62,108 bases of DNA from an uncultured Bacteroidales bacterium (GTDB taxonomy: Bacteria > Bacteroidota > Bacteroidia > Bacteroidales > Paludibacteraceae). The notes under the pieces were generated by a model. That model saw nothing but the letters and a program-made list of their open reading frames with translations, was not told where the DNA came from and searched no databases. The stretch lies in assembly GCA_900321605.1 (NCBI GenBank), contig ONWR01000008.1, positions 1-62,108 on the forward strand. Direction: 5' to 3'. Numbering within the stretch: position 1 is the stretch's first letter; every line of letters starts with the position of its first letter. A program made the position numbers and the translations under genes. This document shows positions 1 through 57,527 of the stretch, piece by piece.

Positions 1-735
1 CCTTCTCCTGCTGTTTCCAAGGTTCACGCCCGTGGAGTTCGCTATTTATATCCCATTGACGGCATCAATTACTACTGCGGAATGATGAACTCCCACAAGA
101 AAGGCCAGAAATACCGCAAACACATCATCGTTCGTCGTGTTCCGCGTTTTGGTGGCTTGCACCAACTCTATACGTACCATTTCCCCAAGACGTGGTCAGC
201 AGCCTGTGTAGCTAACCGCGAACTCATCAAAACCGCCCAAAAACTCGCTCACGCCCTCGAACACGACTACTCTCAGGAAGGCATCGAATGGAGACTTCGT
301 TTCTTCCATCATTATTTCCATGTAGTCAAAGGTGGTGCCAAACCGGAACCCGGTCTCAAACCCTATACCCGTTTCTATCAATACGTCTACGTCTGCATCT
401 TTCGCGACCTCAAATCCGCCGCCCAAGAAGCCGCTCAAGAAGCCTCCCTCGCCGCCCAAAATGCCTCCGCCGAGCAGTCTTTGTTGAGTGCTCCGTGCGT
501 CAGCGCGGAGTCTCTTACCATTGCTCATCCCCACACCGTGCTGTCCACTTCTCGGCGCTGTCTCGCCGAGCAACCTCTCCCTGAGGACGTCTCCTTCGTG
601 CCCATTAATCCCCGTCCCCTCCGTTCCCGCCGCACGTATCCCCTCAATGCCCTTTCCCTCTCATCCTCTCATCCGCTCACCCTCTCATCCTTTCCTCACC
701 CTCAAAGAGAAGAATTTTATAAAATTTTGACCTAA
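1..735 (+). CDS. Unrecognised protein, 5' end outside window
   Basis: The frame is open from base 1 through the first in-window ATG at 82, so the true start lies left of the window. The visible N-terminal part (245 codons in all) is rich in aromatic and basic residues, with the stretch NSHKKGQKYRKHIIVRRVPR and a CVANRELIKTAQKLAHALEH helix. After about codon 140 it becomes an Ala/Glu helix and then a low-complexity Ser/Pro/Leu tail. The tail is encoded by CTCATCC-type tandem words (about 658-702), so it may be a recent repeat-driven extension. I do not recognise the family and see no catalytic motif, signal peptide or membrane segment. A Bacteroidota promoter for the next gene begins directly after the stop. 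Confidence 0.6.
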   Translation, partial: PSPAVSKVHARGVRYLYPIDGINYYCGMMNSHKKGQKYRKHIIVRRVPRFGGLHQLYTYHFPKTWSAACVANRELIKTAQKLAHALEHDYSQEGIEWRLRFFHHYFHVVKGGAKPEPGLKPYTRFYQYVYVCIFRDLKSAAQEAAQEASLAAQNASAEQSLLSAPCVSAESLTIAHPHTVLSTSRRCLAEQPLPEDVSFVPINPRPLRSRRTYPLNALSLSSSHPLTLSSFPHPQREEFYKILT

Positions 736-737
736 GA

Positions 738-770
738 TTTGCATATATCAAAAATTATTTGTAATTTTGC
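738..770 (+). promoter_or_regulatory. Promoter upstream of the DUF2442 gene
   Basis: TTTG at 738-741 and TAATTTTGC at 762-770 are separated by 20 bases, the Bacteroidota -33/-7 arrangement. The stretch after the -33 box reads CATATATCAAAA, matching the extended motif seen at the other promoters in this window. Confidence 0.75.
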
Positions 771-829
771 AGCGCAAAATGAAAGGAGCAAGCAAATAGG
801 AAGAATTGAACCTCTAAAATAAAATCGTT

Positions 830-1063
830 ATGTTACGCGTAAAGGATGTTGATTATCAAGGAGACTACAAATTGGCTCTCACTTTTAGCGATGGAGCGCA
901 TAAGGTAGTGGATCTGGAGCCGCACTTAACAGGTGAGGTTTTTGGTTCTTTGCGCGACAAAGACCAATTCATTCAGTATGCGCTCACACCTGTTACAATT
1001 CAGTGGGCTAATGGAGCAGACCTCGCCCCGGAGTATTTATATGAAATAGGCACACCTATATAA
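830..1063 (+). CDS. DUF2442 domain protein
   Basis: This 77-residue protein matches the small DUF2442 family: an N-terminal strand pair (VKDVDYQGDYKLALTFSDG), a VDLEPHL segment, and a C-terminal half with VTIQWANGADLAPEYLYE. DUF2442 proteins are usually 75-100 residues and often occur with toxin-antitoxin-like or DUF4160 partners; no DUF4160 gene is visible here. The function is unknown. It has its own promoter 60 bases upstream. The 295 bases downstream hold a folded-looking element rather than a second gene. Confidence 0.75.
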   Translation: MLRVKDVDYQGDYKLALTFSDGAHKVVDLEPHLTGEVFGSLRDKDQFIQYALTPVTIQWANGADLAPEYLYEIGTPI

Positions 1064-1109
1064 ATCCGCTGAACTCCACAGCGTAAAAAGGAGAACTAAA
1101 ATAACATAT

Positions 1110-1286
1110 GACGCAAACGTGCGTCCCTAAAAGCGTAATAAGCCCAACTTGATCTTTTGAAACTTCGACAACTTCAAAAAATCTATTAGCAATTCAAGTC
1201 TTGGTTTATGCACGCTCACGTAAACGCGTGAGTTTTCTGTGTGTAAATTTGAATTGTTAAGGTAGTCGAAGACCTCAAAAGATCAA
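1110..1286. other. Intergenic structured element with nested inverted repeats
   Basis: This region between DUF2442 and the lipoprotein gene contains a small hairpin (GACGCA 1110-1115 / TGCGTC 1120-1125). It is followed by a nested set of perfect arms: TTGATCTTTTGA 1149-1160 with TCAAAAGATCAA 1275-1286; CTTCGAC 1163-1169 with GTCGAAG 1265-1271; a 14-bp arm 1186-1199 with 1247-1260 (two G-U pairs if RNA); and CTCACG 1215-1220 with CGTGAG 1227-1232. It could be a structured RNA, a small non-autonomous mobile element or a protein-binding palindrome. No coding sequence of support lies here. Confidence 0.55.
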
Positions 1287-2318: not shown

Positions 2319-2334
2319 TTATTTTAATAAAAAG

Positions 2335-2404: not shown

Positions 2405-3997
2405 ATGGAATTAAGTGAACAAGAAATTGTACGCCGACAGAGTTTGCAGACGATGCGCGAAATGGGCATCGATCCCTACCCTGCGGCTGAGTATGAAGTA
2501 ACCGGTTATTCAACCGAAATCAAGAAGAATTTCAAAGATGAGACAACCCCACCCCAACCCTCCCCACAAGGGAGGGAGAATGAGCCCTGCGGATTGAAAG
2601 AATGGCATACAGGTGACACCGTACGTATTGCCGGACGACTGATGTCCAAACGTATCATGGGCAAAGCTTCTTTCATCGAAATCCAAGACTCCAAAGGACG
2701 TATTCAAGTGTATGTATCGAGAGATGACATACAAGCACCTGTAGCCGAAGGCGAGCAGCCGACGACTGTAGAGCAGCAGATGTATAACGTGGTATTCAAG
2801 AAACTGCTCGATATCGGCGATTTCATCGGTATCGAGGGATTTGTTTTCCGCACACAGATGGGCGAGATCTCCGTACATGCCAAGAAACTGACGGTGCTTG
2901 CCAAGAGTCTTCGTCCGCTGCCGATCGTGAAATACAAAGACGGCGTAGCTTATGACGGATTCAATGATCCGGAGCAGCGTTACCGTCAGCGTTACGTGGA
3001 CCTCGTGGTGAACGAGGGTGTCAAAGACACGTTCCTCAAACGCGCTACTATCCTGCGCACCATGCGTCAGGTGTTTGACGAGGCAGGTTATACCGAGGTA
3101 GAGACCCCGATCCTACAGCAGATAGCCGGAGGTGCTTCGGCTCGTCCGTTCATCACGCATCACAATTCGCTCGACGTAGATATGTACCTTCGTATTGCGA
3201 CAGAGCTCTATCTGAAACGACTGATCGTCGGCGGTTTTGAGGGTGTGTATGAGATCGGCCGTAACTTCCGCAACGAGGGAATGGACCGCAGCCACAACCC
3301 TGAGTTTACCTGCATGGAGCTCTATGTACAGTACAAAGACTACAACTGGATGATGAGCTTCACGGAACAGCTGTTGGAGAAAATCGCGATAGCTGTGAAC
3401 GGCACAACCAAAGTGCAGATAGGTGACCATGAGGTGGATTTCAAAGCTCCTTACCGCCGTCTGCCTATTTTGGATGCTATCAAAGAGAAGACCGGTCTGG
3501 ACTTGGCTTCGATGAGCGAGGACGAGATCCGCGTAGAGGCAAAGAAACTCGGTGTGGAAGATACCGAGCACATGGGCAAAGGTAAGCTCATTGATGAGAT
3601 CTTCGGCGAGACTTGCGAGGGATCATTCATTCAGCCGACTTTCATCACGGACTACCCTGTTGAGATGAGCCCGCTGACGAAGATGCACCGCTCCAAACCC
3701 GGTCTGACCGAGCGTTTTGAGCTGATGGTGAACGGCAAAGAGTTAGCTAACGCTTATTCGGAGCTCAACGACCCGATTGACCAATATAACCGTTTCGTAG
3801 AGCAGATGAAGCTTGCGGACAAGGGTGACGACGAAGCTATGGTTATCGATCATGACTTCATGCGCGCGTTAGAATATGGTATGCCGCCGACCTCGGGTAT
3901 CGGTATCGGTATCGACCGTCTGGCTATCCTCATGACCGGACAGCCGACCATCCAAGAGGTTCTGCTCTTCCCGACGATGAAACCGGAAGTCAATTAA
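2405..3997 (+). CDS. lysS: Lysyl-tRNA synthetase, class II
   Basis: LysRS charges tRNA-Lys in the cytoplasm. The 530-residue protein has the N-terminal helix, the OB-fold anticodon domain (about residues 65-160, VRIAGRLMSKRIMGKASFIE), and the class II core with motif 2 (GRNFRNEGMDRSHNPEFT) and motif 3 (GIGIGIDRLAILMTGQ). A downstream ATG after the promoter was chosen as start. Odd feature: residues 47-63 (TTPPQPSPQGRENEPCG) are encoded by a C-rich palindromic DNA repeat inserted in frame between the N-terminal helix and the OB fold, a place where surface extension would be tolerated. Confidence 0.95.
   Translation: MELSEQEIVRRQSLQTMREMGIDPYPAAEYEVTGYSTEIKKNFKDETTPPQPSPQGRENEPCGLKEWHTGDTVRIAGRLMSKRIMGKASFIEIQDSKGRIQVYVSRDDIQAPVAEGEQPTTVEQQMYNVVFKKLLDIGDFIGIEGFVFRTQMGEISVHAKKLTVLAKSLRPLPIVKYKDGVAYDGFNDPEQRYRQRYVDLVVNEGVKDTFLKRATILRTMRQVFDEAGYTEVETPILQQIAGGASARPFITHHNSLDVDMYLRIATELYLKRLIVGGFEGVYEIGRNFRNEGMDRSHNPEFTCMELYVQYKDYNWMMSFTEQLLEKIAIAVNGTTKVQIGDHEVDFKAPYRRLPILDAIKEKTGLDLASMSEDEIRVEAKKLGVEDTEHMGKGKLIDEIFGETCEGSFIQPTFITDYPVEMSPLTKMHRSKPGLTERFELMVNGKELANAYSELNDPIDQYNRFVEQMKLADKGDDEAMVIDHDFMRALEYGMPPTSGIGIGIDRLAILMTGQPTIQEVLLFPTMKPEVN
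2543..2593 (+). repeat. C-rich palindromic element inserted in lysS
   Basis: ACCCCACCCCAACCC runs into a perfect 7-bp hairpin, CCCTCCC (2558-2564) / GGGAGGG (2570-2576). It resembles intergenic C-rich palindromic repeats found in many bacterial genomes, but here it is read as 17 codons of lysS without a stop. Confidence 0.7.
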
Positions 3998-6917: not shown

Positions 6918-8237
6918 TTAACGAAGGAACGAGACGCCGACTAACCGGTCATACCGCGCGCCGAAAGGACGCCAATAGACATACACGGCATATTCGTTCT
7001 CAGTCTGCCAATAACTACCATCCACACGTTGGGTGGTAGTTGTTTTATTATTGGAGATTTGGGATTTCTTATCTCCCTCCGGTCGAACGATCTGCTTCGC
7101 CGTATGCAGATTTGAGATTTCAGATTTGGGTACAAACCAATACTGATAATCGTAGCCGCCCTGCTTCACCAGCGAAGCGAGCCAGTAACATTTGGTTTCC
7201 GGGTCGTACTGCATCCTGTTTCGGAGCCCCATCTCGTTATTGAAAAGGTCTCCGCCTACATAGAGCGCGCCGTCAAACCAAGGCTGCTCCATCGGCAGCG
7301 TCCAGTGTACCCACATATACTCCGCTTCCACATCGCTGTCCTGCGTACGCTCAGCGTTGACAAGAAAACGTCCATCAGCGTCCGCACTATTGAACATATA
7401 CCCGTTTGTGCGCAGTTCGTCCGCAAAGAGCATTGCATGATAGTCGCCCATCTCATAATAGACGCGGTCAATACCCGTTCCGGCAAAATAGGTCGAGAAC
7501 GCATCGAAATGACGATACTCATTACCGCCCTCGAAGATCAGATCTTTGCATTGCTGGTATTTGAGTCGGTTGCGCTCGATATACGTAGGACGGGAGAGCC
7601 AAACCTCGTTGTCCGTACGGTTGTTCTGTTGTACCAACACGTGCATCTCATTCGGATCCTTGAGATCGATAGCTGCCGTATTGAGACTAAGATCCATCTG
7701 CTGGTAACGCCCGTTGATTTCTATATCCGTATGGCTATAGACGTTCGCCTCCACCTTGACAGCCGGTTCTACCACAGAACACCGGATCTCAGCGATTTTG
7801 TTCTCAGGATCACCGTCCTCATACACCGTCAGCAGATAATTACCGCTCTTGGTAATCACCATCTCGGGGTTCGGGAACGCGAACCGGTAATGGGTATATT
7901 CGCGGCTCGTATTGATGGAATGCTCATAGTCGGTAATGTCCTGCGTAGTGAATCCGCGCAGATACTCACCAGAGAGGATGTCGCTCTCCTTGGACCAATT
8001 GGCATTCATGTGCTTCACAGAAAACGTATAGAAATGTACGTCATGACTCATCTCGTCGAACGAAATATGGAGCACATTTTCGGGATCAGACCCGTCCAAT
8101 TCGTTCTCCATGAGCGTCAGGCACGTACGCGCGACGCGCAACGTACGCACGCGTTCATTATAGATATGCGTGTGGGTTTGCGCGCTTATCCCGAGCATAA
8201 GGGATAAAAAAATCACTATTAATGCACTTTTTTTCAC
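6918..8237 (-). CDS. Type IX secretion system plug protein (DUF5103 type)
   Basis: Homologous in appearance to the Plug protein of the T9SS outer-membrane translocon, which closes the SprA channel on its periplasmic side. The 439-residue protein has a signal peptide (KKSALIVIFLSLMLGISAQ) read from a GTG start, an Ig-like N-terminal domain (about 20-140), a middle domain (about 150-270), and a C-terminal domain ending ENEYAVYVYWRPFGARYDRL. Residues about 370-396 (SEISNLHTAKQIVRPEGDKK and flanks) are encoded by an inserted DNA repeat shared with the DUF4857 gene at 39343-39392. Two proteins in the window carry short T9SS-like C-terminal tails, consistent with an active T9SS. Confidence 0.75.
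   Translation of the reverse strand: MKKSALIVIFLSLMLGISAQTHTHIYNERVRTLRVARTCLTLMENELDGSDPENVLHISFDEMSHDVHFYTFSVKHMNANWSKESDILSGEYLRGFTTQDITDYEHSINTSREYTHYRFAFPNPEMVITKSGNYLLTVYEDGDPENKIAEIRCSVVEPAVKVEANVYSHTDIEINGRYQQMDLSLNTAAIDLKDPNEMHVLVQQNNRTDNEVWLSRPTYIERNRLKYQQCKDLIFEGGNEYRHFDAFSTYFAGTGIDRVYYEMGDYHAMLFADELRTNGYMFNSADADGRFLVNAERTQDSDVEAEYMWVHWTLPMEQPWFDGALYVGGDLFNNEMGLRNRMQYDPETKCYWLASLVKQGGYDYQYWFVPKSEISNLHTAKQIVRPEGDKKSQISNNKTTTTQRVDGSYWQTENEYAVYVYWRPFGARYDRLVGVSFLR
7053..7130. repeat. In-frame repeat insertion in the plug gene
   Basis: Positions 7063-7112 match 39343-39392 at 49 of 50 bases (only 7075 differs). The core holds an ATCTGC/GCAGAT inverted repeat (7090-7095, 7106-7111). 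It is flanked by TTTGAGA/TTTCAGA words. A third, shorter relative is at 8434-8459 (23 of 26 bases alike). Confidence 0.85.
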
Positions 8238-18516: not shown

Positions 18517-18556
18517 AGTAATAATTAAAAATTAAGAATTAAAAATATTATACATT
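18517..18556 (+). repeat. AATTAAA words in the nusB-yajC gap
   Basis: AATAATTAAAAATTAAGAAT continues with AATTAAAA-type words of period 7, the same vocabulary as 45799-45824 and the glycosyltransferase insertion at 55125-55154. Confidence 0.65.
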
Positions 18557-33571: not shown

Positions 33572-33573
33572 AT

Positions 33574-33636: not shown

Positions 33637-33650
33637 GCGGTAGACAATCG

Positions 33651-38114: not shown

Positions 38115-38280
38115 CCGTTTTTTCAATTCACAAATCACAAATTACAAATCACAAAGCGTCCTATAGGGTTTTGTACAAACTGATAAGTCCGTACGTATTC
38201 TTTTAGTCCGTACCAAACTCCGTAAGCCCTTTGATAATTGTGAATTGTGAATTGTGAATTCGGCTTTTAGCCGTTGTACA
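38115..38280. repeat. queH downstream region with two heptamer clusters
   Basis: TCACAAA, TCACAAA, TTACAAA, TCACAAA (about 38129-38156) and ATTGTGA x3 (about 38238-38259) are tandem heptamers. A CGGCT-TTT-AGCCG hairpin (38261-38273) follows the queH stop. The remainder shows no gene. Confidence 0.7.
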
Positions 38281-40912: not shown

Positions 40913-40980
40913 TTTAATTGACGATTTAACGATTTACGATGTACGATTTATTGACGATTTATTTTAATTGACGATTTAAG
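40913..40980. repeat. GACGATTTA word cluster between ATPase and permease
   Basis: TTTTAATTGACGATTTAACG and repeated TTGACGATTTA/GTACGATTTA words fill the 73-base gap. Same family as 33574-33636. Confidence 0.8.
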
Positions 40981-40985
40981 GTGGT

Positions 40986-41687: not shown

Positions 41688-41692
41688 ATTAT

Positions 41693-41848
41693 CATTTACA
41701 CATTTTTTCATTTACACATTTTTTCATTTACACATTTTTTCATTTACACATTTTTTCATTTACACATTTTTTCATTTACACATTTTTTCATTTACCATTT
41801 TATCATTTACCATTTTATCATTTACCATTTTATCATTTAGCATTTTAT
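41693..41848. repeat. Minisatellite in the ABC operon leader
   Basis: Six perfect 16-bp units CATTTACACATTTTTT (41693-41788) followed by four 15-bp units CATTTACCATTTTAT (the last with AGC) to 41848. On the transcribed minus strand every unit carries AAAATG and AAATG sequences, giving about twenty upstream ATG codons in the leader. Confidence 0.95.
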
Positions 41849-41859
41849 CATTTTCGGGT

Positions 41860-44533: not shown

Positions 44534-44535
44534 AG

Positions 44536-44556
44536 TTGAAAGTTGAAAGTTGAAAG
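44536..44556 (+). repeat. TTGAAAG x3 before the DUF4876 gene
   Basis: Three perfect heptamers between the receptor stop and the lipoprotein ATG at 44564; the reverse complement is the word inside yggS. Confidence 0.85.
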
Positions 44557-44563
44557 TTTAGAG

Positions 44564-45751
44564 ATGAAAAAGATATTGTACATAGTGCTTTGCAGCTGTT
44601 TGGTTTGGACGGGCTGCGAGAAGAAAGATCCGGTGCAGACGGCTGAGTTGAGCGTGGTGCTGCAGATGGAAGGGGTCACGAAGATAAGCGACGTGGTCAT
44701 TTCCGCCCATGACGTCAACATGAACCGAGATTACAGCGAGTCATCCACCACGATCTCACTGCCGTTGGGGTACTACGACCTGACGGTAAACGCTTTGGGT
44801 GACGGTCAGCCTATACGTGCCTATAAACGCGGCGTGAAGGTAGAGCGAGACTGTACGGTGGAGATGACGGCGGATTGGGTAGCAGACAGAACGGATGATT
44901 TTGTGTTGGCGGAGATCTTCTTTGCCGGCACAGAGACACCGGAAGGCAAACGGTATATCGGCGATAAGTACTTCGTGGTCTTCAACAACAGCACCGACGC
45001 CCTCTATGCCGACGGACTGATCCTCGTGGAAGCCGACCTCAACTCGGTGCAGAAATACGATTTGGGAGACCATGATTTTCGGGATCGGTATTTTGCCGTG
45101 GATGCCATGTACCGTATTCCGGGTAAAGGCGATGAGCATCCGGTGGCTCCCGGGAAAGCCTTGCTGATAGCGGATAACGGCATGGATCATACGGCAGCCA
45201 ACAGCAACTCGTTCGACCTGAGCGATGCGGATTACGAATGGTATGACGTCTCGTCCAGCGCCGGTGCTACCGATGTGGACAACCCTGCGGTGCCGAATAT
45301 GGACAAGCTCTACTGCTATACCTACACCATCTGGGTGCCGCACAATCAAGGACACAAGTCCTTCGGTCTGGCGAGGTTTCCGGAAGGAGTTACCGCAGAG
45401 CAGTATTTCGCGACCGACTCGCTCTATCTCAGTTACAACTATGAGTTAGTGACCTCAGCCGGTACGTTCTCGCAATCGAAGAAATCGTACGTCCTGCCCA
45501 ACGAATGGATTGTGGATGCGGTGAATATGGCACCGTCCGAGACTTTCCAGTGGCTCACATTCAGCGACAAACTCGATGCCGGTTACGCCTATGTAGCTCC
45601 TACGGGCAGCGATGTGACCCGTTTCGGCAAAGCCGTGCGACGCAAGACCAAAGAGATAACCAACGGTCGTCGGGTACTGCAAGACACCAATAACTCCTCC
45701 GACGACTTCGAAATGGGAGTACCCGCGAATCCGAGGTACTTTAGTCGTTAG
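44564..45751 (+). CDS. DUF4876 surface lipoprotein
   Basis: The 395-residue protein begins with a lipoprotein signal (MKKILYIVLCSCLVWTGCEK, lipobox WTGC). An Ig-like N-terminal domain (VVLQMEGVTKISDVVISAHD) is followed by a lamin-tail-like region (LAEIFFAGTETPEGKRYIGD, YFVVFNNSTDALYADGLIL) and ends ADDFEMG-like (SSDDFEMGVPANPRYF). DUF4876 proteins accompany TonB receptors in Bacteroidales. The TTG at 44543 lies in the repeat tract and is rejected as start. Confidence 0.8.
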   Translation: MKKILYIVLCSCLVWTGCEKKDPVQTAELSVVLQMEGVTKISDVVISAHDVNMNRDYSESSTTISLPLGYYDLTVNALGDGQPIRAYKRGVKVERDCTVEMTADWVADRTDDFVLAEIFFAGTETPEGKRYIGDKYFVVFNNSTDALYADGLILVEADLNSVQKYDLGDHDFRDRYFAVDAMYRIPGKGDEHPVAPGKALLIADNGMDHTAANSNSFDLSDADYEWYDVSSSAGATDVDNPAVPNMDKLYCYTYTIWVPHNQGHKSFGLARFPEGVTAEQYFATDSLYLSYNYELVTSAGTFSQSKKSYVLPNEWIVDAVNMAPSETFQWLTFSDKLDAGYAYVAPTGSDVTRFGKAVRRKTKEITNGRRVLQDTNNSSDDFEMGVPANPRYFSR

Positions 45752-45822
45752 TCGTTAGTCTTTAGTCGTTGGTCTAACAGCGCAGCGGTCTAACAAGGAA
45801 ATTAAAAATTAAAAATTAAAAA
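45745..45822 (+). repeat. TAGTCGT and AATTAAA heptamers between DUF4876 and DUF6850 genes
   Basis: TTAGTCG, TTAGTCG, TTAGTCT, TTAGTCG with period 7, then AGCGCAGCGGTCTAAC, then AATTAAA x3. The reading frame of the next gene opens at the last repeat. Confidence 0.85.
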
Positions 45823-46971
45823 TTGAATTTATTAACGATACTCATAGTAATTACTTCGCTGGTGACGGATACGGCACAGACGGATCTGAGTATTTCGGGT
45901 TCGTTCGGGCAAGGCACGCAGGTCATTGAGGGCAGACAGAACGGAGGGTTCGAAGTGAACGCCCGTTCGGTATATGACATCAATGCCGTGAGTCGCGTTT
46001 TCGGAGAAGCCTCGTACACATGGCAGGACTGCCAAGAGACCCGTTGGGTCGATAACGCCGACTACCGTCAGACAGCACCCTATTGGACTGTGGACACCAT
46101 CGGCGGAAATGCACGAAGGGAGATATACTATTTCCGAGGAGGATACAGAATGCTCAAGAACCATGTGCTATGGAGTGCTGCGTTACAGTTCCGCGCCGAG
46201 CAGAGTTATCGTATGCGTGACCCGCGTGCGAAAAACAAGGTCTCTGACCTGCGCATCGAAGCGACCATCGGCTATCAGTGGAAGCGGTACGCACTGTCGC
46301 TCATGGCGTACGGAGGACGGTACAAACAGAATAACGAGATTCGTTTCTACTCCGAGTTAGGCGAGACCACGATCTACCACATGGCAAACGACGAGGAGCC
46401 GTATGCACGGTTCTCGAACAATAACAAGATCAGTTATTACAGCGGTTACCGTGCCGGTGTAGGCGTACAGCTCATCCCTACCACGGGTTTCATAGCCGGA
46501 GTGCAGTACGACTGGTTCTCGTTCACCAAAGAGCTGAGCATCAACACGCAAGTACCGATTACGGCACTGAAGACTCACACGCTCTCGGCGCAGTTCGGCT
46601 ATATAGCGACCCGTTGGCGCGTACTCGGAACGGCAGGCATAGAACTCAAACGAGGTCAGCAGTACCTCTACGGCGAAAACGCCAATAACTACTACCACCT
46701 GCTGCTCATTGCCGATAACTACAGCCGTAACTCGGTTTTGGCGAACCTCTACGGCGACTACCGTCTGTTCTTGCCCATCGGCGACCTGCTGTTTGCCGGA
46801 ACGGTGGACTACGATCAGTTCATGCAACACGTGAGGGAGAGTGTGCAAGTACGATATACCTTCCCGATCAAGAACCGCTACTCGTGGTTCGTAGCTCCCA
46901 AAGCCAGCCTGCATCAGTACGATCATGCACATAGTTGGCAGGTCGTTCTCCAAACGGGAGTAACGTTTTAA
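45823..46971 (+). CDS. DUF6850-type outer-membrane beta-barrel protein
   Basis: The 382-residue protein has a short signal peptide (LLTILIVITSLVTDTAQT) and alternating beta strands throughout (YRAGVGVQLIPTTGFIAGVQ, YSWFVAPKASLHQ, SWQVVLQTGVTF), ending in a C-terminal aromatic residue as outer-membrane barrels do. No ATG precedes the signal peptide: an in-frame stop lies at 45817 and the only start codon is TTG 45823, at the edge of the AATTAAA repeat. The native start may have been eroded by repeat expansion. Confidence 0.7.
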   Translation: MNLLTILIVITSLVTDTAQTDLSISGSFGQGTQVIEGRQNGGFEVNARSVYDINAVSRVFGEASYTWQDCQETRWVDNADYRQTAPYWTVDTIGGNARREIYYFRGGYRMLKNHVLWSAALQFRAEQSYRMRDPRAKNKVSDLRIEATIGYQWKRYALSLMAYGGRYKQNNEIRFYSELGETTIYHMANDEEPYARFSNNNKISYYSGYRAGVGVQLIPTTGFIAGVQYDWFSFTKELSINTQVPITALKTHTLSAQFGYIATRWRVLGTAGIELKRGQQYLYGENANNYYHLLLIADNYSRNSVLANLYGDYRLFLPIGDLLFAGTVDYDQFMQHVRESVQVRYTFPIKNRYSWFVAPKASLHQYDHAHSWQVVLQTGVTF

Positions 46972-47008: not shown

Positions 47009-47452
47009 ATGAAAAAGATTTTATTTGTATTGGCAGCAGGGCTGATGGCTCTGACTGCATGCCAGAAAAAGGCAGAAGTAGCGCCTACCGTTTATTCGGT
47101 GGACGAAGTGTATGTACAAGGTGATTCGCTGGTCGGCGACACGATCTACGTAGAAGGTAACTGTTTGCACCTCTGCAAACATGGCGGTAAGAAAGCGTTC
47201 CTTCGTTCGAGCGAAGAGGGCGAGTTCATCCGTGCCAACGCAGTAGAGTTCGAGTCCTTTGCCGGAGAGTGCGTTAACAACAACGTACGCGTGTACGGTA
47301 TCCTTCGCGCAATGGAGATCCCCGTGGAGCAGCCGAAAGCCGAAGAGGCTACCGAGGAGCATCATCACGAAGGCGAAGAGGCTTGCGGTGTTTGTTCAAC
47401 CGTCAAGAAATTCTACCTCGATGCTGTTTCGTACGAAATTCTTGCAGAATGA
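47009..47452 (+). CDS. Small Cys/His-rich lipoprotein
   Basis: The 147-residue protein has a lipoprotein signal (MKKILFVLAAGLMALTACQK). The body resembles an OB-fold-like domain (GDTIYVEGNCLHLCKHGGKK) carrying a C-x3-C with adjacent His, and a C-terminal EEHHHEGEEACGVCSTVKKF with three His and a C-x2-C. Metal binding is a fair inference; the metal is not. It closes the receptor operon and is followed by heptamers and a terminator. Confidence 0.65.
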   Translation: MKKILFVLAAGLMALTACQKKAEVAPTVYSVDEVYVQGDSLVGDTIYVEGNCLHLCKHGGKKAFLRSSEEGEFIRANAVEFESFAGECVNNNVRVYGILRAMEIPVEQPKAEEATEEHHHEGEEACGVCSTVKKFYLDAVSYEILAE

Positions 47453-47506
47453 TTTGAAGATTTGAAGATTTGAAAATTTGAAAATTTGAAGATTTGAGAA
47501 TTGAAA
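47453..47506 (+). repeat. TTGAAGAT / TTGAAAAT words
   Basis: Six words of period 8 (TTGAAGAT, TTGAAGAT, TTGAAAAT, TTGAAAAT, TTGAAGAT, TTGAGAAT) follow the lipoprotein stop. Related words are inside the second TonB receptor at 50306-50345. Confidence 0.8.
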
Positions 47507-47570: not shown

Positions 47571-49181
47571 TCAATTCTCAATGCTTCCTCCAAGGGCGTT
47601 ATACAGCGTTCCGTTATGACGGATCAACAACTGTCCGTTACGGAGGATTTTCTCTGCCTTGGTGGTGTTAGCAGGGGTAGCTTCGATGCCGGTGGTAGTC
47701 TGGTCGGTCGTATCAAGTTCGACAATGAGGGAGTACCAATTGGTGGTAGTAAACTGCATTGCGTCTTCGTTCAAGAGATAATACGGAGCTTTGGATTGAG
47801 CACGAACACCGACCATGGTCTTCGTTCCGTCTGCATTACGACCTACAACCGATACCGTGGACGAACCACCTCCATGACCGATGGTATCAACCGAAACGAG
47901 CGTCATGTCCTCGTCATAATGGAGAGCCATCTGAAGACCGTTCAGCGTCTCGTGGTTATAAGCCACATAGCCGTCCACCGTCGGATAAGCAGCTACGGTG
48001 ATGTTCAGCGCATTATTAGCAGCTGGGTGTACATCGAAATCAAGGGCAGTTCCGTCCTCCTGATTGAGGATATAGACGAGACCGTGATTGAAGTTACCGG
48101 AGGTAGCAATCGTCTTATCGCCCATCGTGATAGAGCCTTTGGAGAGACCGCCGCATACGAAGATCTTACCGTCCACGAACTTAGTCTGCTGGAACTGCAG
48201 GGAACCATTAACAGCGTGATACCGGATATACTCGCGCTCCAAATTGGTGTTATAACGCGCAGCATAGATACCCGTCTCGGTACCATTACTATACGTTCCG
48301 GCTACATACAGTTTGCCGTTCTCGTAATGCAGCCCCAAAGGACGATCGTACACCAACTCATCGCTGTTGATCGCATAGCCGATATAGTCCAAGTCTTTGA
48401 ACTGATTGTTGGCAATCTGGTATTTGAGGATCACTGTATTGCAGTTACTGCTCAGAGAACCTTTCGTATTCCATGCACTACGCGGCGCGATTGAGTCGTT
48501 CCACTTAGGCAGAAGCGTATCACCCTGCAGACCGGCGATATAGATATATCCGTCTTCGTCCTGCGCAGCTCCTGCCCATGAGAAGGCTTCCTTGCGGAAC
48601 ACTTTCTTGCCATCTACCTCAATCGAGTCAAAGTTGGTAAAGGACATATTATTCGATGCCACCAACTCTCCGCTCGGACTATATACATTAAAGAAACTCA
48701 TGTACACGCCCTTACGCGTGCGGAACTTATCGGCGTAGATCAGACCTCCGTCATTCGTCACCGAAATAGCAGTATTCGACAGGTCATAGTCACCGGTGGT
48801 GTCTGCTTTAGCCCAAAGGAGATTGCCTTCGGCATCGAGTTTGGCAAGGAAGGAGTTACGCATATTGCTGTACTTCATATCACCGGTTCTGCTACCCCAC
48901 TTGGAAGCTGTAGCACCTTGATAAGCATTGCCGTCAAAGAGCAGACCGGTCTCTTCGGAAGAAGCGGTCTGGTACGAACTCAGCAGATAGAGACTACCGT
49001 CCGGTGCATAGTCCAAACTGTACAACTGAGTAGTACCCTTGGTAGCATCCGCCTGCTCATCGACCAAGGACTTGTAATAATTTAACTCGGCTCCGTGAGC
49101 CATCATGCTCAGCCCCAAGGCTGCCATCAAAAACACATTCTTCGTTGCCCCATGGGCAGTGTTGATTGTAAATTTTTTCAT
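47571..49181 (-). CDS. Secreted protein with short T9SS-like C-terminal tail
   Basis: Start at ATG 49181 (signal peptide KNVFLMAALGLSMMAHGAE after a short basic stretch). The 536-residue protein has repeated propeller-like segments (LDAEGNLLWAKADTTGDYDL, YLYIAG-like DGYIYIAGLQGDT, LHYENGKLYVAGTYSNGTE, VDGKIFVCGGLSKGS). The C-terminus KAEKILRNGQLLIRHNGTLY plus NALGGSIEN matches the tail of the 55569-57527 protein and resembles a compact type A sorting signal. A surface role is likely; function unknown. Confidence 0.65.
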   Translation of the reverse strand: MKKFTINTAHGATKNVFLMAALGLSMMAHGAELNYYKSLVDEQADATKGTTQLYSLDYAPDGSLYLLSSYQTASSEETGLLFDGNAYQGATASKWGSRTGDMKYSNMRNSFLAKLDAEGNLLWAKADTTGDYDLSNTAISVTNDGGLIYADKFRTRKGVYMSFFNVYSPSGELVASNNMSFTNFDSIEVDGKKVFRKEAFSWAGAAQDEDGYIYIAGLQGDTLLPKWNDSIAPRSAWNTKGSLSSNCNTVILKYQIANNQFKDLDYIGYAINSDELVYDRPLGLHYENGKLYVAGTYSNGTETGIYAARYNTNLEREYIRYHAVNGSLQFQQTKFVDGKIFVCGGLSKGSITMGDKTIATSGNFNHGLVYILNQEDGTALDFDVHPAANNALNITVAAYPTVDGYVAYNHETLNGLQMALHYDEDMTLVSVDTIGHGGGSSTVSVVGRNADGTKTMVGVRAQSKAPYYLLNEDAMQFTTTNWYSLIVELDTTDQTTTGIEATPANTTKAEKILRNGQLLIRHNGTLYNALGGSIEN

Positions 49182-51798: not shown

Positions 51799-51805
51799 AG
51801 CCAAT

Positions 51806-53119
51806 ATGAAGAAAATCGTTGTTTTTATAGCTTTATTGTTCGGCAGTTTGGCTCTTTTTGCGCTGCCCCATTACCAGTTGGCGTACCGTTTGAGCGGTAC
51901 CGGAGGAATGATGATGAAGGACGGAAAAGTAGATCCGTTCATCCAAAGGCCTGTATTAGGCGGTAGTTTTGCCGTGGAGTTTCTGCCGACGGGCAGATGG
52001 CACTGTTTGCAGCAATGGAACAATGCGTCCATCGGTGTGGGCGTCAGTTATCTGAATCTGGGCAACGAAGCCAAACTCGGTTCCGCTTTTACGGCGTACG
52101 GGTACATGAATCAGCCTTTCTATAACGGGAAGCATTTCCGCATCGGTCTTCGTCCGACGGTCGGTTTGGCGGCTGTTACCAAACGCTATTCAAACACGTA
52201 CGAGGGTACCCATAAATACCAAGACCACGAGGGAGCCAACTGGTCTATCGGTTCTATTCTGAATGCCTATTTGGCGCTTGACCTGTATATGGATTTCCCG
52301 ATTAAAGATGGTTTTGAGATCACACTTTCGGGAGGTTGGCATCACATCTCCAACGGCTCGATGATGCACCCGAACGCAGGGTATAATATCTTCGGTGGAG
52401 AAATCGGGTTGAGATACAAGCCGAAGGACGAAGGAACAATGGACAATGGACAAAGGACAAAGGACGAGGAGCCGAAACCGGATGTGCCGAGGAAGTTATA
52501 CGACGGTGTGGATAAGAAATGGGCTGTGGAGATCAGTGCTACAGGAGGCGCAAAGCAGAACTACTACGGCGATAACCGCAACGGACAGAAGTTCTTCGGC
52601 GTAGCGAGTCTCAAAGCCGCAGCTTATTGGGTGCCGCTATCTATCTTCCGCATCGGAGGCGGTGTAGATGCTTTCTACGATGGTTATTATGCCTGCGTGA
52701 GTGAAGATTATGCCAAATTGCCCGGGAATGAAGGTGCGACCGTGACGTATTTTGGGAAGACGTATTTGAAGGAAAGCAATGTGAAGAACTGCTTCCGAGT
52801 AGGTATCAGTATTCAGCCTGAGTTTATCATCGGCAATCTGACGGCAGGTATTCATGTGGGATTCTATGTCTTTGACCCCGTGAAGAACTTAGAGCCGTAT
52901 AAAAAAGCCGAAGCGGCTGACCAAAATGGCAAGCCGCTCAAGAGAGGAGTCTTCTATGGCTATGATTTCTCGAAAGCCAGCAATTATCAGGACGGATGGT
53001 GTTATATGCAGTTCGTGCTGAAATACCACGTGCTTGACCATCTGTTTGTACAGTTAGGATTGAAGACACATGGCGTGCGGGCTGAGTTCATCGATGCCGG
53101 AATAGGAGTCGCGTTTTAA
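51806..53119 (+). CDS. Acyloxyacyl hydrolase / PagL-like outer-membrane barrel
   Basis: The 437-residue protein has a signal peptide (MKKIVVFIALLFGSLALFAL) and a first barrel-like half with the lipid A deacylase motif GWHHISNGSMMHPNAGYNIF (His, Ser-Asn-Gly as in PagL). A second half (about 225-437) repeats barrel strands (WAVEISATGGAKQNYYGDNR, FRVGISIQPEFIIGNLTAGI) and ends GLKTHGVRAEFIDAGIGVAF. PagL-type enzymes remove the 3-O acyl chain of lipid A. GGACAAW heptamers (52433-52470) encode GTMDNGQRTKDEE between the halves. Confidence 0.8.
   Translation: MKKIVVFIALLFGSLALFALPHYQLAYRLSGTGGMMMKDGKVDPFIQRPVLGGSFAVEFLPTGRWHCLQQWNNASIGVGVSYLNLGNEAKLGSAFTAYGYMNQPFYNGKHFRIGLRPTVGLAAVTKRYSNTYEGTHKYQDHEGANWSIGSILNAYLALDLYMDFPIKDGFEITLSGGWHHISNGSMMHPNAGYNIFGGEIGLRYKPKDEGTMDNGQRTKDEEPKPDVPRKLYDGVDKKWAVEISATGGAKQNYYGDNRNGQKFFGVASLKAAAYWVPLSIFRIGGGVDAFYDGYYACVSEDYAKLPGNEGATVTYFGKTYLKESNVKNCFRVGISIQPEFIIGNLTAGIHVGFYVFDPVKNLEPYKKAEAADQNGKPLKRGVFYGYDFSKASNYQDGWCYMQFVLKYHVLDHLFVQLGLKTHGVRAEFIDAGIGVAF
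52433..52470 (+). repeat. GGACAAW heptamers in the acyloxyacyl hydrolase gene
   Basis: GGAACAAT, GGACAAT, GGACAAA, GGACAAA, GGACGAG with period 7 at the junction of the two halves; shares words with the pdxA 3' end. Confidence 0.85.
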
Positions 53120-54345: not shown

Positions 54346-55310
54346 TAGATCTCTTCTTTGATCAAGTAGTCGTTACGTGAAGGCGAATTGCGGATAACTA
54401 ACTCTGCCAAGAATCCAGCGAGGAAGAGCATGCAACCGAGGATCATCATCAGTATAGCTATGTGGAAATACGGATTAACACCTACCAACATGGCGGGTAC
54501 ACCGTTAGAGAGGGCATAGAGCTTCATGCTGCCCACTATGAGGACTGCCACAAAACCGATGAAGAACATCAGACTGCCCACCAAACCGAAGAAATGCATC
54601 GGTTGTTTGCCGAACTTATTGAGGAACCACAAGGTCATCAGATCCAGATAGCCGTTGACGAAGCGGTTGAGACCGAACTTACTGGTACCGAACTCACGTT
54701 TGCGATGCTGTACCACTTTCTCGCCGATTTTGGTAAAACCGGCGTTCTTCGCCAAGTACGGGATATACCGGTGCATCTCTGAGAAGACCTCAATATTCTT
54801 CACCACCTCCTTGCGGTACGCTTTCAAGCCGCAGTTCATATCGTGCAAGGGAATACCGGTAACACGACGCGCTGTAGCGTTGAAGAGTTTGGAAGGCAGG
54901 TTCTTGGTCAGTTTGTTATCAAAACGTTTTTGCTTCCAACCGCTCACAAGATCAAAACCGTCTTCTGTGATCATCCGATAGAGCTCGGGGATCTCATCTG
55001 GACTATCCTGCAGGTCAGCATCCATGGTGATAACCACATCGCCCTGCGCTGCCTTGAAACCGCAGTACAGCGCCGCACTCTTACCATAGTTGCGACGGAA
55101 ACAGATACCTCGCACAATGCCTTCTTTTAATTTTTCATTTTTAATTTTTAATTCCTCTATGACATCCCATGAATCGTCGGTAGAACCGTCGTTCACAAAA
55201 ATAACCTCGTAGGAAAACTTATTTTCCTTCATCACGCGTGCAATCCACTCATAGAGTTTCGGCAGCGATTCCGCCTCATTAAAAAGAGGCACTATAATTG
55301 AAATATCCAT
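54345..55310 (-). CDS. Family 2 glycosyltransferase, DPM1/GtrB-like
   Basis: Start at ATG 55310 (MDISIIVPLFNEAESLPKLY). The 321-residue protein has the GT-A domain with FVNDGSTDDSW, VVITMDADLQDSPDEIPELY (D-x-D) and LVSGWKQKR, and two C-terminal membrane helices (FGLVGSLMFFIGFVAVLIVG, FHIAILMMILGCMLFLAGFL). Relatives transfer a sugar to polyprenyl phosphate. Residues about 64-73 (KIKNEKLKEG) are encoded by TTTTTAA words (55125-55154) inserted between helix and strand. Confidence 0.9.
   Translation of the reverse strand: MDISIIVPLFNEAESLPKLYEWIARVMKENKFSYEVIFVNDGSTDDSWDVIEELKIKNEKLKEGIVRGICFRRNYGKSAALYCGFKAAQGDVVITMDADLQDSPDEIPELYRMITEDGFDLVSGWKQKRFDNKLTKNLPSKLFNATARRVTGIPLHDMNCGLKAYRKEVVKNIEVFSEMHRYIPYLAKNAGFTKIGEKVVQHRKREFGTSKFGLNRFVNGYLDLMTLWFLNKFGKQPMHFFGLVGSLMFFIGFVAVLIVGSMKLYALSNGVPAMLVGVNPYFHIAILMMILGCMLFLAGFLAELVIRNSPSRNDYLIKEEI
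55125..55154. repeat. TTTTTAA words inside the glycosyltransferase gene
   Basis: TTTTAATTTTTCATTTTTAA continues with TTTTTAATTC. The reverse complement is the AATTAAA vocabulary of 18517-18556 and 45799-45824. Confidence 0.75.
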
Positions 55311-55353
55311 ATTCTTAACCAAGGTACGATTGTTTCTAAAAACCTTTGCGGCT

Positions 55354-55385
55354 GCAAAGGTACTACAAAAATTGCACATATGCAA
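55354..55385 (-). promoter_or_regulatory. Glycosyltransferase gene promoter
   Basis: Minus strand: TTTGCATATGTGCAA from about 55386 and TACCTTTGC at 55362-55354. The longest frame (to 55385) begins here and was shortened. Confidence 0.85.
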
Positions 55386-55463
55386 ATAAAAATGGATTTT
55401 TTTGAGAAAAATACGACGCTTTTTATAAGATGCAATTTTTATTGGACGCTTTTTTGATATTTA

Positions 55464-55496
55464 TTTGCATATTTCAAAAAAAAGCAGTATCTTTGC
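55464..55496 (+). promoter_or_regulatory. Promoter of the five-repeat protein gene
   Basis: TTTG 55464-55467 and TATCTTTGC 55488-55496; the spacer begins CATATTTCAAAAAAAAGCAG, followed by a 72-base leader. Confidence 0.8.
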
Positions 55497-55568
55497 ACCG
55501 CAAATTGCTTGAACCGATAGCTTTTGCACAACGAATTATCAAAAACCTTTAATAATTGAAGATTATTT

Positions 55569-57527
55569 ATGAGGAAAATTTTATTTCTTTTATGCGCTGT
55601 GACGATGGTTTTCAGCGTCAATGCCAGACCGCTCAAGGGAGCGAAGACCTTATTCCCTGAGAAAGCGACTTTAACCAAAACGTGGAAAGCCAAACAACAC
55701 CTTGCCGCTTCGGACACTACCCTCACGATGGCAAACATGGTCTCGAAGTTCTATTCGCAGAGCAACGACATGTATGTCCGCTTAGAGGATGAATCAGGTG
55801 ATTTAGCTTTTGTCTTTGATATAGTCTTGGATCCGGGACAGACTCAACTCGTTTCCGGCAAGACCTACACGCTGGCTGACATGCTACCGGCCTATACGAG
55901 AATCGAGGATTACGTGAATATCAAATATATATCCTTCCAGACGGCGGAGTTCACCTATACGCTGGCTCCCGATTCGTCGTTCACTGTTGTTGCTACGGTA
56001 TTGGATGAGAACGACAAGACTTGGCATATATCGTACGCTCAAGGTGCACCGGTGATCTCCTATGCTACGCTCGATCTCAACGGAACGGTCGAGACCATCG
56101 ACGAAGTACAAATGATCACTGCCGCCAATAGTGACTCCACCAGCATGGTTCGTTTGGTTATTGAAACAGACCAGATCCTTGGTTCGTTCACAATGGAGAA
56201 TATATATGATATGTTCAGTGGTATCCTCTATCAAGACGCTGAGTACCGTATTATAGACGCAGCCTTCACGGTGACATACAATGCCAACGATAAAACCTAT
56301 GAGGTTTCCGGCACTCTCAAAGGCGTGAACACTGCAAATCAGACGGATGTAGTCATCTTCACGATCCATTTCCTTTGCCAAGCATCTACTGATCCTTTCC
56401 CGACAGAAGCAAAGGACACCGTGGCGCTCGAATTTAATGAGATCTATGGATTGCAGTACTATGCCGGTTCTGGTGACTATTACATCGTTGCCAAGCGTCC
56501 GGATTACATCCTTACGCTCGATATCCAGACCGACTCGCTGCCGGGCACTTATGAGAAGAAAGATTTTGACAAGGACTACACGCGTCTCATGATGATCAAC
56601 GGCACAGACACCGTCATCCCGGGTACAATCAAGGATGCCAAAGCTACGATTGTTGATATGGAGACCTTCTATAATATCAATGCGGAACTCTACCTTTCGG
56701 ATACCGTCCTCTATCTGTTGCATATGATTTACGCCAAACCGGTAGCTTCGGATACTATCCGTTACACCTTTACCGAGCCGATCATCATCGATGAATATGT
56801 GAACGAATACTATTTCGCAGCCACAGACTCGAACTATCTTCTCCAAATGAACTACAGGAGTTCCTCTATCACCGGTACGTTCACGCAATCAGATATGATC
56901 ATGCGGTATTGCGGTCTGTACAATGCAGCAGACACATCGTTTGTCCCCTATGTAGATTTGGGTCTTGTGGTGACCGAAGATGAAACAGGCTACGACATCA
57001 CAGTCGATTATTTCGCTACGGACTCGCACTACTATATCTTCACCATCCGCAGCAATAAGACGGTAGTGGAAGACACCGTGGATATCTACTTGGAGAATGC
57101 ATTCTTGGAAGACCTTGACATCTATGCGTCTATGTATGGTTTCCAATACTATGTGGAAGCAGCTCCGACGGATTCAAGCTATAAGTTTATGCTGGCTCTG
57201 AAACCGAGTACCCTCGAAGGTTCGTACACCATAGATGACCTCTACCCGATTTATTCTCGCATCAAAATCGGCAAGGACTACTATCAGTTTGTGGACGCCT
57301 CGTTCGAGGTCACCGCAGGTGAAAAAGGCAGTTATACCCTGTCCGGCTATGCTATTGCGAAGAACAACACATGGTATAATTTCGTGATCAAAACCGCCGA
57401 ATCCGCTCAGGGCATTGACGAAGTACAAAGGGACAAAGTACAAAGTACAAAGATCCTCCGCAACGGTCTCCTCCTCATCGAGCGTAACGGCATTCTCTAC
57501 ACCCCCTCCGGTCAGATCGTGAAATAA
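55569..57527 (+). CDS. Secreted five-repeat protein with T9SS-like tail
   Basis: The 652-residue protein has a signal peptide (RKILFLLCAVTMVFSVNA) and five degenerate repeats of about 110-130 residues. Each has a strand pair, a (G)S/TYT-x-x-D-(M/I/L) turn and a Y/F-rich strand set: KTYTLADMLPAYTRI, GSFTMENIYDMFSGI, GTYEKKDFDKDYTRL, GTFTQSDMIMRYCGL, GSYTIDDLYPIYSRI. The C-terminus ILRNGLLLIERNGILYTPSG matches the tail of the 47571-49181 protein, so export by T9SS is likely. The peptide before it (DEVQRDKVQSTK) is encoded by GTACAAA words. Function unknown. Confidence 0.7.
   Translation: MRKILFLLCAVTMVFSVNARPLKGAKTLFPEKATLTKTWKAKQHLAASDTTLTMANMVSKFYSQSNDMYVRLEDESGDLAFVFDIVLDPGQTQLVSGKTYTLADMLPAYTRIEDYVNIKYISFQTAEFTYTLAPDSSFTVVATVLDENDKTWHISYAQGAPVISYATLDLNGTVETIDEVQMITAANSDSTSMVRLVIETDQILGSFTMENIYDMFSGILYQDAEYRIIDAAFTVTYNANDKTYEVSGTLKGVNTANQTDVVIFTIHFLCQASTDPFPTEAKDTVALEFNEIYGLQYYAGSGDYYIVAKRPDYILTLDIQTDSLPGTYEKKDFDKDYTRLMMINGTDTVIPGTIKDAKATIVDMETFYNINAELYLSDTVLYLLHMIYAKPVASDTIRYTFTEPIIIDEYVNEYYFAATDSNYLLQMNYRSSSITGTFTQSDMIMRYCGLYNAADTSFVPYVDLGLVVTEDETGYDITVDYFATDSHYYIFTIRSNKTVVEDTVDIYLENAFLEDLDIYASMYGFQYYVEAAPTDSSYKFMLALKPSTLEGSYTIDDLYPIYSRIKIGKDYYQFVDASFEVTAGEKGSYTLSGYAIAKNNTWYNFVIKTAESAQGIDEVQRDKVQSTKILRNGLLLIERNGILYTPSGQIVK
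57423..57452 (+). repeat. GTACAAA words just before the T9SS-like tail
   Basis: GTACAAA, GGGACAAA, GTACAAA, GTACAAA in frame between the last repeat and the sorting tail; shares words with the alaS insertion. Confidence 0.8.

Follow-up and report, generated by a model that had tools for sequence, protein, structure and literature searches.

What are the short tandem words, most of them seven nucleotides (nt) long, that lie scattered through leaders, gene junctions and conserved genes of an uncultured Bacteroidales bacterium, and how did they come to be there? The question is raised by a 62,108-nt contig of a member of the Paludibacteraceae (GenBank assembly GCA_900321605.1, contig ONWR01000008.1; the whole stretch is hereafter the window), in which the original prediction had placed mostly period-7 words at no fewer than fifteen loci, explained either by a process that writes words of fixed length or by slippage from a dispersed seed. 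Comparison with the rest of the genome and with close relatives suggests that small repeat patches are copied about the genome and swapped as units, since unlike words stand at one place in close relatives. The vocabulary, its genome-specific spread, the unlike content at fixed sites of sister genomes and the keeping of the reading frame are observed; the copying route is considered after the evidence.

Genomes and definitions

The window is contig C41 of the source genome G000, a draft of 2.32 Mb in 64 contigs that is 95% complete and belongs to a genus sample of 178 genomes (G-numbers denote genomes and L-numbers sequence stretches or loci, both being labels of this analysis). Sampling covered up to 642 kb of G000 and 80-180 kb from each of about seven other genomes, and the depth of reading was uneven, long stretches being studied in the window and, for about a dozen congeners, in parts. 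An exact array was defined as at least 12 consecutive lag-7 matches, and for alaS, yggS and RNase P RNA the words were sorted into classes by eye. The closest relatives of the alanyl-tRNA synthetase (AlaRS, gene alaS) come from metagenome assemblies named uncultured Bacteroidales or Paludibacteraceae, several of them from ruminants (yak, roe deer, sheep, reindeer, water buffalo), and RUG in the assembly names presumably stands for rumen genomes.

Abundance and position of the arrays

Tandem Repeats Finder (TRF, minimum score 30) returned 23 period-7 rows in the window, so that the predicted abundance held, while a strict period of 7 did not, since units of 8, 9, 11 and 16 nt also occur. The CTCATCC array (657-691) and the one at 47451, both taken for heptamers, have period 8, the regularity of a third, at 29180, reaches merely 83%, and the notion of words of fixed length was too strict. 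There are 8 exact period-7 arrays in the window against 0 in 20 dinucleotide-preserving shuffles, which rejects a chance origin; exact arrays of periods 6 and 8 number 1 and 2. The rest of the G000 sample, 25% of the genome, holds 62 exact period-7 arrays in 580 kb, that is 10.7 per 100 kb, and a density so close to the 12.9 of the window marks the window as typical of its genome. Counting against shuffled sequence and in relatives had been proposed as a check from the start, and the window counts do lie far above shuffled sequence, while other Bacteroidales average 1.7 per 100 kb for period 7 (66 loci, 1.23 Mb), next to 2.2 for period 22, 1.3 for period 21, 1.1 for period 14 and at most 0.4 for all others. 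Among six congeners the density runs from 0 (G011) and 2.1 (G002) up to 15.8 (G015). The heptamer preference is real, strong in part of the genus and weak in other Bacteroidales. It is spelled in many ways, the 70 exact arrays of G000 using 34 canonical words in place of a small, fixed set of word families, and since other unit lengths and small hairpins also take part, period 7 is a preference and no rule. The 120 kb of G011 (L179-L184) without an exact period-7 array do contain period-8 and period-11 arrays, hence the preferred unit length varies within the genus.

Across 642 kb of G000, 81 period-7 clusters were located, 38 within predicted open reading frames (ORFs), 32 outside and 11 at edges, where the ORFs were called greedily, spurious ones included, and cover 90.6% of the sample. 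Noncoding DNA is strongly favoured, though nearly half of the clusters sit in ORFs. Many arrays of the window begin at or cross stop codons, or finish just ahead of starts.

A vocabulary dispersed within each genome

The recurrence of a word in unrelated places, which had been claimed for four words, was borne out for each: CTTTCAA in yggS (28219) returns as AAAGTTG before DUF4876 (44532), GGACAAW stands at 36312 (pdxA) and 52424, GTACAAW at 34721 (alaS) and 57421, and AATTAAA at 55125, 18519 and 45799. Such sharing is commoner within a genome than between genomes. Among clusters from nine genomes, one of them cluster-free, 196 of 3870 pairs within genomes share a word, compared with 149 of 7305 between genomes, and none of 2000 label permutations reaches 196 (mean 119.8, highest 186). 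With AT-only words excluded, 106 shared pairs face a permutation mean of 54, which again no permutation brings up to the observed value; G007 alone lacks the within-genome excess (1/45 within, 26/1400 to others).

The word GACYAAC illustrates the spread. It was found at 21 sites in 642 kb of G000. On inspection the flanks look unrelated, save that L022 and L154 have a AGCCCTTGCATGG spacer in common and that the two L027 sites have flanks resembling each other. An 18-nt pattern of it, counted with overlapping matches, occurs 151 times in G000, 14 in G128, 38 in G074 and 34 in G090, and 15 of 28 genomes lack it altogether; read backwards as a control, the pattern gives 0 in G000 and 0-7 in each other genome.

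Dispersal is also seen in the blocks in which the window differs from its sister genome G128. Among the 1268 13-mers of 20 such window blocks, 480 turn up again in the 580-kb sample of G000, the control outside blocks giving 5.1% of 24270; when equal 120-kb pools were used, 18.6% recurred in the own genome and 0.4-4.1% in seven other pools. The sister-side block 13-mers recur in G000 as well (312/821 vs 5.1%), so the sisters use one dictionary and differ in the placement of its words. Longer units are dispersed too. A composite of about 140 nt, made of TTGACGATT and ATCGTACAT words with partial inverted symmetry, lies at L021:10125-10265 and, whole or in part, at 16 further sites in 642 kb, with matches in both orientations; G128 carries it at over 20 places. 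It is possibly similar to a miniature inverted-repeat transposable element (MITE). The frequent dispersed 15-mers TTGCATATATGCAAA, ACTGCTTTTTTTTGA and CAAAGGTACTGCTTT, each in 13-15 bins in 642 kb (e.g., L013, L023, L148), look like common promoter or leader sequence of the lineage.

Unlike words at fixed sites of sister genomes

G128 is collinear with the window at 2304-55455 and 96.1% identical to it over the ~53 kb compared. Alignment gaps were merged into 36 indel blocks, 28 of which hold at least 7 nt on one side. Both genomes carry at least 14 nt, mostly unlike, in 22 of these 28, and one side is short or empty in the remaining 6. Scored for tandem structure (14-nt window, lags 5 to 24, cut-off 12/14 matches), the 22 two-sided blocks reached the cut-off in 12 cases on the window side and in 13 on the sister side, and both sides were tandem in 10 of the 22, the control segments giving 29 and 16 of 880. 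A word is common to both sides in two of these ten (18516, and AATTAAA as part of 45751); the words differ in the other eight (4003, 33573, 36267, 38097, 40912, 41698, 47440 and 55113). That coding arrays keep the frame, as had been predicted, was supported, since in 9 of 10 coding blocks the length changes by a multiple of three (21, 60, 0, -12, -21, 18, 27, 12, -6), compared with 5 of 18 intergenic or junction blocks; the tenth coding block, 44546 (-7), is placed 3 nt inside an ORF whose TTG start is doubtful. The same picture is given by a second region, in which L021 was compared with G128:C50: 118 nt of GACTAAC words face 52 nt of ATGTGTA words between neighbours that are 95-96% identical, and TTAGTCG words face a 154-nt GATGTACGATTTAAAG composite directly before a start codon. 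The ORF that follows this composite starts MFDTHCHIDE, a reading reminiscent of TatD.

Could replication slippage alone produce such differences? Any heptamer could then undergo in-register duplication, a length of 7 nt being preferred because of the footprint of the polymerase; arrays would be born and lost quickly, selection would retain those in spacers and tolerant loops, and unlike words would be independent births. The strong period-7 preference in much of the genus, weaker in other Bacteroidales, agrees with this, as do two reports which tell that heptamers lead the long-unit classes in most of the genomes surveyed and that a polymerase-footprint cause has been put forward (PMC4692102, PMC4679880), and 7-nt steps do occur in 4 of the 28 blocks (8286, 10041, 18516, 44546). 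However, whole-unit length change is not the rule: eight word-for-word differences stand against those four blocks, single 7-nt steps would break the frame of alaS, yggS and other genes, length changes in coding blocks are mostly multiples of three, composites recur in one order at unrelated sites, and the words are genome-specific. In view of the four blocks and of the loop swaps in alaS (below), pure slippage was rejected as the whole explanation, for which it is unlikely, and kept as a contributor. The early proposal of slippage from a dispersed seed thus survives for the four blocks, and for the rest the copying of multi-word patches is favoured.

Mobile elements were considered next in weight. 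The words would be arms or fragments of elements resembling repetitive extragenic palindromes (REPs), MITEs or Rickettsia palindromic elements (RPEs), served by a transposase in trans. The ~140-nt composite, present in both orientations at 17 sites of G000, speaks for this, as do the core of a 60-nt hairpin element in two window genes and an in-frame entry that recalls the RPEs. Yet two-sided blocks of unlike content outnumber one-sided insertions (22 vs 6), and terminal repeats or target duplications were not demonstrated, duplications having been examined unsystematically. The Y1 transposase family (Y1_Tnp, PF01797), to which the REP-type enzyme belongs, gave 0 matches in the 95% complete G000 at E 0.001, in a search limited to that transposase family; at the same threshold 7 of 14 genomes have matches, all weak, 5 above cut-off. 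A REP transposase was rejected on this count, other transposase families lying outside the search, and reverse transcription, including a diversity-generating retroelement, was rejected since RVT_1, present in 2 of 8 genomes, has no match in G000 or G128. An origin of the words from mobile elements is improbable.

Turns of AlaRS and YggS in congeners

The alaS site was followed through 87 loci, 59 with at least about 70% identity (two of them duplicating others) and 28 from outside the genus. In 23 of the 59 the best period is 7, with at least 11/14 lag-7 matches, and these together with three weaker loci (L031, L059, L299) fall into 11 word classes. An outgroup comparison at this gene had been asked for at the outset, and none of the 28 loops from outside the genus carries a lag-7 repeat, the highest reaching 9/14. 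The outgroup loop mostly has 22 residues (from Glu/Gln before VGD to the residue after DTK) and, within the genus, about 24 of 59 loops have 18 residues and no repeat, the word-bearing ones having 22 to 30. Since outgroup AlaRS usually carries a non-repetitive 22-residue loop there, the claimed entry into conserved genes is to be qualified: words are present in them, and in alaS they mostly fill an already variable turn.

The AlphaFold model of the window AlaRS (mean predicted local distance difference test score 75, predicted template modelling score 0.46) places site 1 in the turn between strands 510-514 and 523-533 and site 2 between strands 536-541 and 552-556. The idea that coding arrays lie in surface loops is consistent with this model, made for alaS alone. 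The position of the pdxA array was corrected: it sits in a C-terminal tail that follows the conserved domain (Pfam PdxA, residues 32-323 of 383). The second turn bears words in L031, L249, L293, L298, L302 and L305 (by eye). In L302 a 34-nt composite stands in each of the two alaS turns, apart from one difference; it also stands in turn 2 of L293, and 26 nt of it are found in L199. L276, from another genus of the family, has an in-frame hairpin, CCCTCTCCTGTGGAGAGGG, in the same AlaRS turn, which accordingly takes hairpin elements too.

The clearest exchange is that between G187 and G132. Outside the loop their alaS genes are 98.82% identical, most of the several hundred nt to each side being the same in both, and inside it AAAGTTG words face AAGATTT words, so that across 20 kb of 98.3% identity 48 nt are replaced by 48 nt. 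The G187 loop is the sole exact period-7, 8, 9 or 11 array in either 20-kb stretch, from which both genomes appear word-poor and the example counts as one case only. In the region L350:5775-6170 compared with L351, from the same two genomes, a gene start is much more diverged than its surroundings, like imported DNA.

Is ordinary homologous recombination among strains and species sufficient, shuffling old word-bearing alleles while new words are rare? In the alaS gene tree built without the loops (57 rows) several words are scattered, and loops of one kind occur in distant species against that tree. The recombination-like patch just mentioned for G132 and G187 points the same way. However, the exchanged alaS tracts stop near the loop, within under about 100 nt, leaving 80%-identical flanks unchanged: the loops of G132 and the distant G121 (L290) differ at 2 of 72 nt (codons 501-530) in genes 80.9% identical elsewhere, and those of L298 and L029 at 4 of 60 nt with 77.7% identity elsewhere. 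Because the flanks stay put, homologous import of long segments was rejected for the alaS loop. Moreover, one composite occurs at non-homologous sites, and genome-specific words require dispersal within a genome. We regard homologous recombination as the whole cause as distinctly improbable.

The yggS loop (residues 174-184) gave a similar variety at 30 loci, with CTTTCAA-type words at nine, CTCAATT at three, period-9 words at four, a period-8 word at one, AATAGCC-type words at two, AATGGTC at one, a dispersed 16-mer standing twice in L231, and about seven loci without a clear repeat. Lone in-frame stops interrupt otherwise good matches to yggS (G001, G038, G182, G113, G069, G009, G104, G034, G087) and alaS (G125, G158); assembly errors, damaged genes and word-caused frameshifts are the candidate causes.

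RNase P RNA

Words also enter a structural RNA. All 28 genomes searched yielded an RNase P RNA gene. The short loop of G000 corresponds in G128 to a stem-loop with about 40 nt of words, a position taken in G090 by GGACTAA/GGACCAA words. In G138 and G074 a composite like that of G128 occupies a different loop. Judged by eye, such words are absent from the remaining 24 genomes, among them G000.

How the patches may be copied

Composites with the same word order thus lie at non-homologous sites, namely the alaS turns of L302, the loops of RNase P RNA, and junctions and spacers, which argues for the copying of patches. Since stepwise slippage is not taken as the whole cause, the Y1 transposase and RVT_1 are unmatched in G000 and flanks are not carried along, a short-patch process remains, by which a dispersed repeat vocabulary would be copied as patches into permissive sites, and this reading we hold to be evenly poised between right and wrong. 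The arrays would be the visible members of a lineage-specific vocabulary, whose units are mostly 7 nt but also 8, 9, 11 and 16 nt or small hairpins. Patches of about 20-150 nt with several words would be copied as units into tolerant sites (intergenic spacers, protein turns in frame, loops of RNase P RNA), where the incoming patch would replace earlier content, sometimes at equal length. The most likely route, which is the part that we infer, would be short-patch recombination, in which short single strands, derived from another locus of the genome or from the DNA of a relative, pair with a site through short matching stretches and become part of it. Lag-7 slippage would build and trim the arrays, and purifying selection would clear all patches but the tolerated ones, with no need to assume a benefit to the cell. 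The size of the exchanged tracts is consistent with such copying, as a patch of less than about 100 nt is replaced in the alaS loop between unchanged flanks, and several sister blocks are of that size, others being longer.

Several observations weigh against this short-patch reading. Microhomology at the patch edges was looked for without a decisive outcome: among 15 blocks with matches elsewhere, the matches end within 0-8 nt of the block edge in 7, a count given without a computed chance level, and in the other 8 at least one match runs 11-80 nt into the flank, meaning that flanks too can be dispersed sequence or array. A clear tandem repeat is missing on one or both sides in 12 of the 22 two-sided blocks. 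Turnover is not fast at all sites, since 7 of 21 alignable period-7 arrays are kept gap-free in the sister, that is apart from substitutions, the 14 others being changed, some by one gap column alone. AT-rich, low-complexity words can arise repeatedly, and protein selection shapes the alaS turn, limits which words survive there and could make unrelated words look alike. ComEC is needed for DNA uptake, and ComEC (PF03772), present in 7 of 8 genomes, has no match in G000, which argues against uptake there, unless the gene sits in a gap of the 95% complete assembly. Finally, the genomes appear to be metagenome assemblies and were analysed without reads. Misjoining of repeats in assembly or binning is nonetheless scarcely credible as the source of the pattern, even though the words are repeats of the kind that such assemblies could misjoin, because the sequence runs on into both flanks, reading frames stay intact, the same word stands at the alaS site of separate genomes (L035 and L067; L039 and L250; L029 and L282) and the sisters agree in 7 of the 21 arrays.

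One may ask what the words would be if patches are indeed copied in this way. A more tentative proposal is that they are a minimal form of selfish DNA, that is tandem patches of 20-50 nt, free of genes and transposases, which would be copied ectopically and displace one another at fixed acceptor sites. Essential proteins and RNase P RNA would then carry interchangeable cassettes drawn from the dictionary of the whole genome, and successive words would sweep lineages, as GACYAAC seems to have done in G000.

Sites in the window

The sites on which the comparison rests are collected in Table 1. Beyond the sister alignment, the gene at 60322-61839 contains two adjoining arrays of 12-13 nt units (TTTTTACCCAAC, TTTTTCTCCGAAC) at 60500-60602. 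GC-rich dispersed words, AACAGCGNAGCGGTCT / AAAGACCGCTTCGCT, occupy the spacers at 3997-4048 and 45741-45795 and stand in frame in the yggS loop of L231.

Table 1. Word-bearing and word-accepting sites of the window, with their state in the sister genome G128 where compared.
Feature	Position	Strand	Remarks
yggS (27700-28350), CTTTCAA x4.6	28219..28250	+	Residues 174-184; TRF; kept in G128 with 2 substitutions
alaS (33651-36287), GTACAAT words	34721..34738	-	Residues about 517-523, beta-hairpin turn; 11 word classes in congeners
alaS, second word-accepting turn	34620..34655	-	Residues about 545-556; without word in G000
alaS 3' junction, ATGTACGATTTAAAG composite including ATGTACG	33573..33672		Sister: TTGACTAG words
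pdxA (36302-37453), GGACAAW array in C-terminal tail	36312..36344	-	Changed in sister
pdxA, internal site	36995..37046	-	G128: period-9 array CATTTGCAC; absent from window; net 21 nt
Junction: TTAGTCG array, AACAGCGCAGCGGTCT word, AATTAAA array	45741..45824	+	Sister lacks most of first two, has third
GATTTGAA junction array, period 8	47440..47505	+	Sister: AATTAAT words
Junction composite, TTGACGATTTACGATTTATTGACGATT type	40912..40985		Sister: AATTAATAATGAATATCTC words
Intergenic block with CAAATCA and AATTGTG arrays	38097..38283		128/175 13-mers recur in genome sample; sister: other words
16-nt unit TCATTTACACATTTTT x10	41692..41853		Sister: AGATTTC words and hairpin element
PagL-like gene (51743-53119), GGACAAW array after domain	52424..52465	+	Site 12 nt longer than sister's
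Gene 54345-55385 (putative glycosyltransferase, label of the original prediction), AATTAAA words	55113..55158	-	Sister: AGATTTG, in frame, net -6
Coding site, CCCTCCCCACAAGGGAGGG hairpin	2522..2596	+	Sister: GTACAAW words; net 21 nt
60-nt in-frame insert (hairpin element)	7063..7122	-	Absent from sister; core recurs at 39348-39384; varied in G128 (opposite L021:6930)
DUF4857 gene, hairpin-element core	39348..39384	-	Sister: GACATTGGACAATGGACAT; net 18 nt
Coding site	47623..47703	-	Sister: TTTGTAC-like words; weak repeat 11/14; net 27 nt
AATTAAA junction array	18519..18546	+	Among four sites with 7-nt steps
AAAGTTG array before DUF4876 gene	44532..44569	+	7-nt difference from sister
AATTAAC junction array, begins at stop codon	46970..46996	+	Kept in sister with 6 substitutions
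GTACAAW words near 3' end of gene 55569-57527	57417..57452	+	TRF; beyond sister alignment

Comparison with known systems

Contingency loci are phase-variable simple sequence repeats, and like them the words are tandem repeats near or in genes; here, however, the frame is kept, housekeeping genes are involved and on/off frameshifting is not seen. Short-patch double illegitimate recombination (SPDIR), which Harms is said to have treated in 2016, comes nearer to the copying proposed here, with patches of less than 100 nt replaced below the usual homology needs. Such events are supposed to be insignificantly rare in nature (PMC7192050), and transfers under 100 bp are reported for Bacillus transformation (PMC13344027). 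In contrast to both, the donors here would be a spreading repeat vocabulary, and the block edges give no decisive sign of microhomology.

The closest known systems are the heptameric short tandemly repeated repetitive (STRR) sequences of heterocyst-forming cyanobacteria and the RPEs. The latter are short sequences, scattered through the genome, that have inserted in frame into many protein genes (PMC10969869). In-frame presence in many protein genes is shared, as the clusters in ORFs and the length changes of the coding blocks indicate, but RPEs are palindromes of about 150 bp with a conserved peptide, whereas the words here are mostly tandem, 20-50 nt long, and unlike at one site in relatives. 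The 60-nt hairpin element of the window is nearer to an RPE than the heptamer arrays are. TAACTGA direct repeats are reported from Beggiatoaceae, cyanobacteria and five Bacteroidetes (PMC4679880). They too are tandem heptamers in spacers just ahead of starts, scattered across lineages; one word dominates there, whereas here the dictionary is large and lineage-specific.

With the cyanobacterial STRRs, which the original prediction had aptly named as prior art, the arrays share heptamer units, a mostly intergenic position and presence inside the RNase P RNA gene. Vioque is said, going by a title of 1997, to have described heptameric repeats in the cyanobacterial RNase P RNA gene, and Jackman and Mulligan reportedly found in 1995 variable but structured spacers between close cyanobacteria. 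One report gives GGGGA(T/C)T heptameric repeats for Nostoc and, for Xanthomonas, repeats between the same genes that vary in length and sequence among close relatives (PMC4692102). Unlike the STRRs, the arrays described here, in a different phylum, comprise dozens of words per genome, put different words at one site of 96%-identical sisters and stand in frame in conserved protein genes. Among open-licence papers searched with few wordings, we found no account of near-identical genomes that exchange words at fixed sites across spacers, proteins and a structural RNA, and none of word swapping of this kind in Bacteroidales.

If the proposed copying is true, it joins heptameric spacer repeats, in-frame selfish insertions and short-patch recombination, which are usually handled separately, and provides a natural setting for following a genome-wide dictionary one word at a time and for measuring the rate and route of sub-100-nt replacement. 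It would also be a warning that such loops and spacers are not ordinary sequence, so that alignments, promoter searches and the loop evolution of AlaRS-type enzymes could be misread. Heptamer over-abundance in bacteria, heptamers in RNase P RNA and in-frame dispersed elements were known before; what appears to be new, within the search made, is the exchange of words at fixed sites.

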